Positions 21,701 to 27,700 of a stretch of 64,000 bases of DNA are shown here, piece by piece (position 1 is the first letter of the stretch; each line of letters starts with the position of its first letter). The notes below the pieces were generated by a model. It did not search any database and had not been told where the DNA came from. It saw nothing but the letters and a program-made list of their open reading frames with translations. The position numbers and the translations under genes are program-made. Origin of the DNA: Nematopogon swammerdamellus (lineage: Eukaryota > Arthropoda > Insecta > Lepidoptera > Adelidae); NCBI GenBank assembly GCA_946902875.1, contig OX336343.1, positions 18,833,596 through 18,897,595 of the forward strand, given 5' to 3'.

Positions 21701-24700
21701 TGCCATGTCAGTGCTTCCCTTCATTTCATGTCGGCTACACTGAACTGGACGGAAAACACAAACTATTTACATAGCCGTTTCGACCGACGTTTCGCTCAGT
21801 GCGGTGCTACCAAGCCGGCCGGGATAAACCCTACCACCTAGTAAGGTAAGAAGGGAAGGGACCTACAGTTTAACGTGGAATCCGAACCACGGTCAGCCTC
21901 CAACGGTCGAGCGGCCACTCATCCAAGTACTGACCGCGCTCAGCGTTGCTTAACAACAGTTGACCGACCGCATCACTGAGCTACCGAGGCTGACGAGGTT
22001 TCATGTGTTTCCCCACACCTATAGTCCCCAGGTATAAATTCCAGCCTATTCCGTCTTAAACAGAACCTCCGTCTACTTGGTCACAGCTCTTCAGTCTCTT
22101 CACGAATCTAGGGCTGCCAAGATCGAAACTAAGTTCATATATGGAGAGAGCTTAGAAAGCATCACTGCAGGCATCTTACAGAATATGGATGGGTTGAGAG
22201 AGGGAGGTCGAGAGTGGGAAAGGTGTTACTCCGGGTCCCAGTCATCGCAGACTAGCTGAAGAGGGCTTGCCGCGAGCCGAAACGTAACGCATGCTGGAGA
22301 ACTACACAGAGTGGCCACTCCCTAGTCCCGACCTTGATTGACACCCTCCTCTACTGCCAATGGGCCAGGATATGTTCGGTGAAGCCAACGCAAGTTGGGT
22401 TCAGCACATTCCCTTTCAAACAACTACAACCTGATTTGATGGACAACTTAAATCAATATATACTAATAATAAATCTGTAGGGGATGGTCATGGAGTAAAT
22501 TACTTTGTTTTATTAAATATTGCGTTTGTAGACTCTATGTATGATACTAAAAACTAAATTGATGATTTTTAGAAATCTTTTCTGTATGTATATATATTCC
22601 TCCATAACTCTTAAATCGATCATCCCAATTCGATGAAACTTAGTACCAACACATTTTACTATACGGGATACAGGATAGGCTTAATAAAATTTTGTTCCGG
22701 TTACGCTAAGATGTGGCTCTCATACAAACAGAATTGTTCGGCACGCCGAAATAAAGGAACGGGTAACAGGCTCACTTACTTTATTCTTTTTAAATACGAA
22801 TTTCACGCGAGCGAAGCTGCGGGCAAAAGCTGGTTAATAAATAAAGTGCTGACCTCCTTGACGATGCTAGCGCAACGGCCCATATCCTCATAGGACGAGT
22901 TTGTGCACGACCCAATCAGGCCGACCTTGATGTCGTTAGGCCAGTTGTTCTGCTTGGCCGCGTCGCCCAGCTTGCTGATGGGGTGCGCGAGGTCGGGTGT
23001 GAACGGCCCGTTCACGTGCGGCTCCAGCGTGTCGAGGTTGATCTCGATCAGCTGGCGGCATCCGGTGGACAGATGGCAAGTGTCAAACGGTTTTTGTTTT
23101 CGAAATCAAAAGGAAAATAGAGAAAAAACCATAGAGTACATAGTTATTGCAGGAGATAAAGAAAAAAAAAGTTATCATGCTAACCTCTTCACAGTAAATT
23201 AAGTTGCCTCAACTTTGGCTGAAATCCACAGATAAGGACTACCAATACTGATTTTCAGGTTGAGTCCTATTGCTCAAATATAATTTAATGGAATTATTAA
23301 TAATATTTAATTAAAATAAAAAAATATAAAAACCACCTTCAAAAAAGCATGAAATAAAAAAAACGAACCCTAGAGTTGAAGGCGGTCGGTTATTTTTGCT
23401 TGCTTTAGCACCGCCTTCAACTCTAGGGTTTGATTTTTTTTATTTCATACATCTTTGAAGGCGGTTTTTATATTTTTTTAAATAGTTTTTTATTTCACAG
23501 TTTTTTTTTGTATTTTTTTGCTATTAATGTACTCGCTTTCCAATCCGATATTGACCAAATTGAAATGGGACCACACGGGAAGCACCAGCTTTCAATAACA
23601 AAAGCATTTTCAAAATCGGTTCACCCAGTCGAAAGTTCTGAGGTAACAAACATAAAAAAAAAAAAATACAGTCGAATTGAGAACCTCCTCTTTATTTTGA
23701 AGTCGGTTAAAAATGTATCCTACGAGAGGTCACTGGTCTTTCCTGTGGAGAAAGACAGCGAGGAAACACATTACAGACACAGCACGGTACAGTCACCCTG
23801 CCGTGTAGATGTGAACGCTTCCATACCAGCCCATACACCACTGCGTATGCACAGCACAGCGACCGTGCAGTGCCGTGTTCGTGTAAAACAGGTGGCAGCT
23901 TTGACCCAATGAATTTTAGTGAGGCACCTAGGTGGATTACCTACATAATAGCATTTTATTAATGTTGTATTGCAGTTTTCATTTCGAGGACAGGACATGC
24001 CCAAAGTCTAGCAATAATCCATGTTGATTTTTTTTCTTTACCTTCAAGATAATTAAGTGAGGCGGCGCCTCACTTGCTTCACCTGGGGAACCGCCACTGA
24101 CTACTGTACTAATATGTTGTGTATAATTTTCGCTGGAAGAAATTGCTTTCTACTGCATTGTGCTTTCAAAAAAATTCAAACATGGAGCTGGCTTCCACTT
24201 GTGCACAATAGGTGCAGTTGTGCGATTCCGCATTAGTTGTGAGCGCAAGTTTTCAAGCTGTGCTGTTTTTTTTCAACAACGTAACTTCCGACAAGATAAC
24301 CTGTGCAGATATTAAAGTTGTTGTGTTTGACTTATGTTTTGACGTTGCGTGCGAAACATCGTACACACACCTTATCGAGTCTATCTTATCTATTGTTTTG
24401 GGAAATGCAAGTATTTCTCTGATAAATTTAACATGCGCTAATTGTGAACTCCGCAGAAGTATTGTGAACTCTCTTACCTCATCGTAAGGTGCATTTTCGT
24501 CCGGGGTCAGTAGGGGCTTGTACTTATTGGCGAGGCTCGCGATAGCGTCGCGTTTCGTCGACTTGAGATAGGCCTCCATGCGAGAGTTGTACGGGAAGAG
24601 CTACATTAAAAAAAAAATTATAAACTGTCAATAATCACCTGGTCATATTTGCAGCCGGGGTCGGCGGTCAACAAATTTGATATTAGCAGTGCTTGCGTAG

Positions 24701-27700
24701 CGATCTCATCTCGATCTGTGGCTCGGAGGTAGATTTCCATGCGGGAGTTATAAGGGAATAGCTGGAAGGGAAAGGAACGGAAGGGTAGAAGGAAGGTTGG
24801 TTAGTTGGTTAGTACATTTTTTTTTCAGGAGTCTGACATAGTTTACTACGTCACCAGCCACATCCGCTGCCATGTCAGCTGATTACATCCCGTCGGAACG
24901 AAATGCCAGCTCAGGCTTCCCTTTGGCCGTGGATAAGGGTTATTGTTATTTGGGAAAGGATAAATGAAATGAGAAAACATGAAATGAAACTTATTTGTCG
25001 CCATTACAGATTTCCAACATATCCTAAACAAATTGGTGACAAATAAAAGGTGTTTCATGTTATATTGCTGCCCGCTGTTTCAGTGAAAGAAAAGCAAAAC
25101 CTATATAACCCTTCTATTGCCCGGCTCAAAATCATGCCAAAGCCGTGATTGCCCCGCCATTTTGGCAGAGTCGAGCGCGCTCCACCCTACTGCGTTCTAG
25201 ACCTTATTTCTAGACTTTTTTCTATGAAGCATATATTAAAAGCCTATATTTTCTAAATCTTCATTAAATTTACTAGGCATTGCCTTGGTATCACGTCTAA
25301 TTGTGTTTATTATTATCACCATTAAACTGGGCCAAAGTCCACAAACGAATTAATTTACATATTCGGGTAAAAAAATATTCATATTTTCTAATAAAAACTG
25401 CAGATACTGAATTTATTGTGTTTTATTTATAGTTTATTACATAATCTACCATTTCCTATCAAGATATCTTTCGTTACAGTAGAAATGTAGATCTCAACAG
25501 AGTTCCAAAGTGTAACAAAAATATGACGCTCTTCACTCGAGGTCGTAAATGTCAAGTATGTTTACAAATTAATTTCGGCTGAATGATCCACTCCAGCGGT
25601 ATGATGTAAGTGTTTACACAAGCCTGGGCTCTTCAAGTACTCAGAATAAAATAATTACATGTGTCGGATGTTTTGTTTCTAAACAATACGAGGCCAAATG
25701 GAACAATGGTCAAAATGACCTACATAGCAAAAACTGCTCTAGAAGCAAATACTACTGACTGAATTAAAATAAAAGGACACTAAAAAATAGTTTATTAAAT
25801 TTGCTCTTAGATTCAGTGAAAAAAAATTAAACTACCGTACAAAAATATTGAAAAAAAATTCAGTGAAATTTACAGAAATAAAAATAAAAAAACCAAAATT
25901 TTGTAAGTAGTAAGGATAACTTAATATGGAGGAGGCTTTCGGGAAATGATAGCAAATTTTTTGCAACATATCTTAAGGTATCTAATACGTATTTGAAATG
26001 GTTACAGATAAATGCTCCAGAAGGCGGACTTAATGCTGAAATCTTTTTGAAGTTATACTTCTTTAAAAACGTTATGCAAATGCATATGAAATAAATGAAA
26101 CGCAAAAATCCATGCACAAAATTAAAAGTACGCCATTAAATTTACGGCCAAAATAAATTTCATTAAATTTAATGAAAATATCACTCAAAACAAGCACACT
26201 AAAAAAATTAAATTTTATTAAAATGTATTGAAGCCGCTATCCATATAGGTGGAGCGGTCGCTCAGCGACACGGTCACGTGACCTCGCGCCGATAGTGCCC
26301 CGAACCGTTGAACGGTTTCCGAAGCGACCGTGCCTTTATTTTTCGAAAAATTTAATTACTAGGCCACTTTAGGGCAGATATAATGTTCTTAAAACATTTA
26401 CAATGAAATAAATAAACTATTTCAATAAACTTTCACTTGTTTTGACGAAAATCTATAGAATTTCGATCGATCAAAGTAACCTACCATTCAAAATTTTCGT
26501 AACGGTTTTTCGTAGTGGGTCGGAAACATCAAAATTATTGACGAATAAATCATTCCTCAAGTCCGAAAAACTATTGTAACATGTAGATTACATACCCTTC
26601 CATTGTTTTTCAGCAAAAAACAGCAAAAATACGGCAAAAAATCACTCCAAAACACAATTTCAATGGCACGCTATTCTGCGTCCGCGAACACAACAGAACT
26701 GAATTTCCGATCGCTTCCCATTAATATTTTGAAGTGGCAAGCATATGGAAGTGTGTATTTTTAGCTAGCCTATTCTTTCATGAATGACTGTACGTAAGTT
26801 AGAAGAGATTAGTAGGATGTATGACATTTAAATAAATTATTTAAAGTGACTAGTCTAGAGAGACCGCTCAACGGTTCGGGGCAAACATGGCAGTCCAAGG
26901 TCGGAACCGCTGAACGGTCTCGGGCAATTGAAGGGATAAGCCAATGATTAGTATTATTAATTAATCAGGTAGAGATTTACATGAAAGAATCAAGTGAAAT
27001 GTTTACACACAACAACCTAAGGGCGTATAGATAGAGGAGAGCTCGTCTTGGATCGAGGAGAGCAACATAAAACCGGAAAATTAATTTGAAGAAAGTAAAA
27101 AAAATATTTAACAAAAAATTTCTCTTTACGATTATATCCTATAGTGGGGATTTAGCTACATGTAGGTGTATTAGGGTTGTAACAGTTACTATAGTTACAG
27201 TCACTCTATGCAAAGTATTTTCAATATTTTAAGTTTTTATGGCCCCATCACAAAATTACAAAAAAAAAAAAAAAAATTACACATGGAAACATTCTGTGTT
27301 TGTATGTCTATCACATGCAGATAGCTCCGGATCTACTGAACCGATTTAGACGAAACTGGTGGGGAAATATGCATTATAATTACCCGCAAACAGGCCATAT
27401 ACTTATAAAAGCGTCTAAAGCTTTGGTGTAATGTACAGATTACCCCAAAATATAATAAAATATATATTTTTTTCAGAATTAAAAGCAAGATTGCCCCTAT
27501 CCGCCCCACTCATTGGGGATGTTTCTCCAAGTATCTCAAGCAAAAAGTTACCACTTTATTAGCAAAAAGTTACCAGGCCCAACGGTTGTACTGACCGATG
27601 TGGTGGCTCCGATCTCAGCGCCCATGTTGCAGATGGTTGCCATGCCGGTGCAGGAGATGGAGTCGACGCCGGGGCCGTGGTACTCCACGATGGCTCCGGT

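Follow-up and report, generated by a model that had tools for sequence, protein, structure and literature searches.

Does a gene that carries two adjacent copies of one coding exon make two forms of its enzyme, or is one of the copies on its way out? The question is raised by a mitochondrial aconitase gene in a 64,000-nt stretch of the genome of Nematopogon swammerdamellus (contig OX336343.1; the whole stretch is called the window below), in which two exons of equal length, 8a and 8b, lie side by side with a very short gap between them (Table 1). Our analysis, which rests on the DNA sequence, points toward a mutually exclusive exon pair from which two forms of the enzyme would be made, and we assign this reading a probability of about 0.78.

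By full-length similarity and cluster motifs, the gene is a mitochondrial-type aconitase (ACO2). Its layout was obtained by tblastn with a human mitochondrial aconitase query, and exon borders were set by eye. The assembled chain of the 13 other exons is in frame throughout, has AG/GT at its internal borders, and gives a product of 750 residues with either copy of exon 8. Residues 1-746 of the 8a form could be aligned to pig mitochondrial aconitase (5acn) with 1357 bits; the alignment was run with this form, from which the 8b form differs solely in the 41 residues. The assembled protein has both GSCTNSS and ACGPCIGQW, which we take to hold the cluster cysteines of aconitase. Exon 1 with the targeting peptide was not found by a scan, which gave one weak candidate. 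Exon numbering is therefore uncertain, and the labels 8a and 8b are kept for continuity with an earlier note on this DNA, whose exon number 8 and residue numbers 302-342 could not be confirmed because they depend on one or more upstream exons that were not found. That note had also described the enzyme as iron sensing, which is overstated for a mitochondrial aconitase; the iron sensor is the cytosolic aconitase, IRP1. As an observation apart, the large intron between exons e5 and e7 contains a 65-bp unit in tandem duplication (window positions 32200-32332, 2.0 copies, 95% matches).

Table 1. Features of the aconitase gene, in window coordinates
Feature	Positions	Strand	Remarks
Mitochondrial (ACO2-type) aconitase gene	12767..41199	-	first exon located to stop codon; 13 other exons plus 8a and 8b
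Exon 8a	24639..24761	-	123 nt, 41 codons
Exon 8b	24478..24600	-	123 nt, 41 codons
Gap between 8a and 8b	24601..24638	-	38 nt, GT...AG, T10 run
3' splice region of exon 8a	24762..24830	-	two CTAAC motifs and pyrimidine tract
Upstream exon ("exon 7")	27596..27774	-	ends ...GAEIGATTS, phase 0, donor GTCAGT
Downstream exon ("exon 9")	22854..23051	-	located by tblastn, in-frame assembly

Translation and assembly bore out what the earlier note had said about the anatomy of the pair: its coordinates, strand and gap length, and the open frames. Both exons are free of stop codons, have phase 0 at either end, are preceded by AG and followed by GT, and each of them splices in frame to exon 7 and exon 9. 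A stop codon appeared in 83% (8a) and 76% (8b) of shuffled exons of the same composition. The two peptides share 23 of 41 residues, including all of the first nine, as had been claimed, and their local alignment score is 110, whereas 5000 shuffles reached 48 at most. At the nucleotide level, 62 of 123 positions are identical, with 24/41, 27/41 and 11/41 at codon positions 1, 2 and 3. The nonsynonymous distance (dN, NG86) between the copies is 0.49 and the synonymous distance is undefined, i.e., saturated, which argues for an old duplication. Indeed, different codons are used at 15 of the 23 identical residues and at five of the nine at the identical start, and a recent duplication or gene conversion is thus ruled out even for that short segment. 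The copies have diverged equally from pig aconitase (21/41 identities for 8a, 20/41 for 8b). Beyond the first nine residues, identities out of 32 number 14 between 8a and 8b, 15 between 8a and pig, and 14 between 8b and pig; with a distance between the copies about that of each copy to pig, the duplication should be very old or have been followed by faster evolution. The genome is large (699 Mb in 39 contigs), and searching it with the 8a peptide, by a method that scores only candidates from a first look, returned two places at E values up to 1, namely, 8a and 8b themselves; no further copy of exon 8 was seen in that search or by tblastn in the window. Judged by these comparisons, 8a and 8b go back to a single ancestral 123-nt exon that was tandemly duplicated long ago.

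What has the protein required of the two copies since then? Prokaryotic genomes were scanned with the 8b isoform, using search patterns not drawn from exon 8, and of at least 595 stretches, the best 80, each of which gave an open reading frame (ORF) of more than 600 residues, were put into one alignment together with 8a, 8b, and the pig enzyme. Nine positions of exon 8 (2, 11, 12, 15, 17, 24, 31, 34, and 40) are invariant in all 81 sequences, and all nine are retained in both 8a and 8b. Otherwise, the variability across the 80 orthologues supports the view that exon 8 is a tolerant part of aconitase, but does not go as far as the helical surface region proposed in the earlier note. Identity between pig and bacteria is 0.45 in exon 8 versus 0.82 in the preceding exon, although exons e2, e12, and e16 (0.34-0.48) are about as low or lower, and exon 8 is the exon of this insect least like pig (0.51 for 8a, 0.49 for 8b). 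The core pattern is kept in both copies, and the differences fall mostly at variable positions. Neutral drift of one copy along one branch was simulated in 4000 runs per setting. Retention of 23 of 41 residues did not occur once at d = 0.8, 1.2, or 1.6; at d = 1.6, third positions agreed at 13/41 on average, the real value being 11. Since d = 0.8 is already rejected, the result holds even with half of the divergence placed on the branch of the other copy. Hence, a copy that has been dead since the duplication is excluded under the drift model and by the nine retained invariants. The invariants and the synonymous changes among identical residues indicate that both copies have long been under constraint at the protein level, and in this respect, as in the age of the duplication, the earlier note has stood.

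If both copies code, how would a transcript be confined to one of them? Since 123 is a multiple of 3, both double inclusion and skipping of the exons leave the frame intact, and exclusivity enforced by frame and nonsense-mediated decay is ruled out; exclusivity would then rest on a steric block, together with a stop upon retention of the gap. The gap is 38 nt long, while the other introns of the gene have 445 to 8456 nt. It has branch-point-like adenosines at +11, +18, and +33, the last one just 6 nt before the 3' site, and the usable candidates sit 10-17 nt from the 8a donor. About 50 nt between 5' splice site (5'ss) and branch point are needed for spliceosome assembly according to mainly mammalian data (PMC6692369 and PMC7969005). 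The claim that the gap is too short to be spliced is in line with this mainly mammalian threshold. The same two papers record U-runs beside close branch points; PMC7969005 lists another 41 introns whose branch points are close, and 4 of these have runs of more than eight U. The 38-nt gap would be too tight for one spliceosome to pair the 8a donor with the 8b acceptor, and each mRNA would take either 8a or 8b.

It would nevertheless be possible on paper to include both exons. GT...AG borders and phase 0 permit splicing of the 38-nt intron to an in-frame product of 792 codons including the stop, i.e., a protein with an internal duplication of 41 residues. However, branch-point candidates this close to the donor are far under the published limits, and neither pig nor any of the 80 bacteria has anything matching the additional 41 residues at this place, where most of the bacteria have only about 6 extra residues. 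We regard double inclusion as extremely improbable. A retained gap, on the other hand, puts an in-frame stop into the mRNA as the seventh codon of the gap. This, along with the cramped 3' site of 8b, would be expected if one exon were constitutive and the other a rarely used or poison (regulatory) splice decoy, retained to control expression and not for its protein. A decoy need not keep its residues, but both copies are constrained at the protein level and either exon alone gives an uninterrupted protein, and a decoy is therefore very unlikely as well, if less so than double inclusion.

The signals around the proposed mutually exclusive pair suggest how the choice could be made. In the 3' region of 8a, two CTAAC motifs place the branch-point-like A at -48 and -40, the former as part of TACTAAC, and there is a pyrimidine tract with 93% C/T over 15 nt (-18 to -4). 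The donors of 8a and 8b both rank in the upper half of the 14 donors of the gene. Probably, the choice would be made by competition between the 3' site of 8a, with its TACTAAC-type branch point and long C/T tract, and the 3' site of 8b, with a cramped branch point plus U10 tract, and pyrimidine-tract-binding splicing regulators may read the competing sites.

Several observations weigh against an exon pair in use, and they have to be set against the evidence given so far. The branch points were recognized by motif alone, and a threshold of about 50 nt that comes mainly from mammals has been carried over to an insect. Limits on the distance from 5'ss to branch point are shorter in flies. RNA folding of the region as a single sequence gave no unusual structure (z of +1.11; 89 of 100 shuffled sequences folded equally well or better), and exclusivity through RNA structure is unsupported by it, although docking/selector pairs could be recognized only in a comparison with relatives. 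The base composition of the exons is a further point. G or C is found at third codon positions (GC3) in 23/41 codons of 8a and 30/41 codons of 8b, compared to 608/709 in the other exons (Fisher p of 1e-5 and 0.04, respectively). As the flanking introns have a GC content of 0.35 and 0.38, 8a leans toward intron composition, but splicing signals inside the exon could also account for its low GC3. Within positions 1-34, four residues of 8a (I10, Q23, L25, and L26) are unseen in the 80 bacteria versus two in 8b (Y27 and P29) and none in pig; the leave-one-out baseline for bacteria has a mean of 0.7 and a maximum of 3. The family profile gives 46 bits for 8a, 51 for 8b, and 61 for pig, which is itself part of the profile. 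The acceptor of 8a is the lowest of 15 and that of 8b the sixth lowest, as scored by a matrix that is a weak yardstick, being built from no more than the gene's own 13 other acceptors.

Depressed GC3, more unseen residues, the lower profile score, and the weakest acceptor are what one would expect if 8a were a once-functional alternative exon that has lately gone out of use in this lineage and begun to decay, with 8b as the exon in use. However, 8a is free of stops, its AG and GT are intact, its branch-point motifs and pyrimidine tract look good, and it has kept nine of nine family invariants. Furthermore, the balance is reversed in positions 35-41, a stretch aligned with less certainty, with one residue unseen in the 81 orthologues in 8a (K38) and two in 8b (E35 and P38). 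In the drift simulation, a frame without stop and with all nine invariants survived in 8-10% of the runs at d = 0.1, in about 1% at d = 0.2, and in none from d = 0.5, and any death of 8a must therefore be recent. We consider recent decay of 8a unlikely, while giving it more weight than the other alternatives.

Assuming that both forms of the mutually exclusive pair are made, what would the swap change? Peptide 8a contains a single Lys and a single Cys, and peptide 8b contains four Lys but lacks Cys; the net charge is -2 in 8a and 0 in 8b, and the mean hydropathy of residues 18-31 is 0.88 in 8a, 0.20 in 8b, and -0.31 in pig. The stretch encoded by exon 8 is not known to contain any of the catalytic residues of the pig enzyme. 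For this reason, and because the swapped segment is naturally variable and the copies differ mostly at variable positions, the swap probably tunes rather than abolishes catalysis; it would affect stability, partner contact, or modification and not the catalytic residues. Aconitase sets the share of citrate that is oxidized versus exported for fat synthesis, and it is a main target of oxidative damage in the mitochondrion. It is imaginable, though we hold this wider model only tentatively and at somewhat less than even odds, that a single gene supplies the insect lineage with two mitochondrial aconitases of different kinetics or regulation, with a switch between them according to tissue or stage and exclusivity enforced by the 38-nt gap. 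The swap might then alter redox behavior (one Cys versus none), acylation (one Lys versus four), or partner binding, and citrate flux would be under splicing control.

A second gene with an aconitase domain, IRP1-like and putatively encoding the cytosolic aconitase, was noticed elsewhere in the assembly (L092:2891-4764; G000:C21 about 3881890-3883763). It contains a young array in which an 82-bp unit is repeated in tandem; the copies are 98% alike and fall into three blocks (7, 6, and 3 copies). The consensus of the unit encodes FGATVAYFPVDAGSLDYLVQT (hand translation), which appears to correspond, in the paralogous gene, to the beginning of aconitase exon 8; the array may be a real expansion or an assembly artefact. 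The same gene region has another array (L091:2667-4782; G000:C21 about 3918166-3920281) of a 141-bp unit in 15 copies, 99% alike, which includes coding sequence that matches the aconitase domain at about positions 429-461 and is adjoined by a 13-bp repeat array. The repeats of this DNA look lepidopteran. In the window itself, a retrotransposon, apparently of the non-long-terminal-repeat type, occupies positions 47682-53001 on the minus strand; its ORF of 1241 amino acids has endonuclease, reverse transcriptase, and RNase H domains, and an ORF of 533 amino acids without Pfam match lies upstream. A minus-strand ORF of 148 amino acids at 3394-3840 matches the RGS domain and is probably an exon of a neighboring gene. 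No Rfam family at the gathering threshold and no tRNA was found in the window.

Is an exon pair of this kind new? Among the papers that searches of the open-licence PMC literature brought up, judged mostly by title and the start of the abstract, none describes such a pair in aconitase, which is weak evidence for its being unpublished. The main text of PMC5740500 contains none of the terms "aconit," "ACO2," or "TCA," and that of PMC3228551, which deals with the prediction of such exons, neither "aconit" nor CG9244. The kind itself is already known, since 2-oxoglutarate dehydrogenase E1 (OGDH) has the tandem, mutually exclusive exons 4a and 4b (PMC7969005) and potential steric interference is reported for 57 (9%) human exon clusters (PMC5740500), whereas aconitase as its gene appears to be new within that literature. 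The earlier note knew of no splice isoforms of this type for mitochondrial aconitase; with OGDH, tandem alternative exons are already on record for another enzyme of the tricarboxylic acid (TCA) cycle.

Four known systems bear comparison with the aconitase pair, whose 38-nt gap would, if the reading is correct, provide a clean natural test of what distance from 5'ss to branch point is short enough for exclusivity. Exons 9 and 10 of PKM likewise form a tandem alternative pair in an enzyme of central metabolism, but a glycolytic one of vertebrates, with a longer intron and exclusivity enforced otherwise. In alpha-tropomyosin, the branch point lies far from its own 3' site in an intron longer than the aconitase gap. 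Its alternative exons are kept exclusive by proximity of 5'ss and branch point (Smith and Nadal-Ginard 1989, as cited in PMC6692369), as would be those of aconitase, although the product is a muscle structural protein. Exons 17.1 and 17.2 of Dscam are, like the aconitase exons, an insect pair subject to steric hindrance (Yue et al. 2013, as cited in PMC7969005), but in a receptor gene and with a contribution of RNA structure, none of which stood out in the aconitase region. OGDH of vertebrates, although a different enzyme in a different lineage, is likewise a mitochondrial TCA-cycle enzyme with tandem homologous exons and an intervening intron whose branch points lie less than 50 nt from the 5'ss; they have been mapped at 25-41 nt from the donor and enforce the exclusive use of the exons, compared to predicted branch points in a 38-nt gap in aconitase, and the swap of exons 4a and 4b changes Ca2+ sensitivity (PMC7969005). 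If our reading is true, aconitase would be a second TCA-cycle enzyme with the same exon trick, and a splice-chosen aconitase would give insects a direct switch on the fate of citrate, comparable to the OGDH switch of vertebrates.

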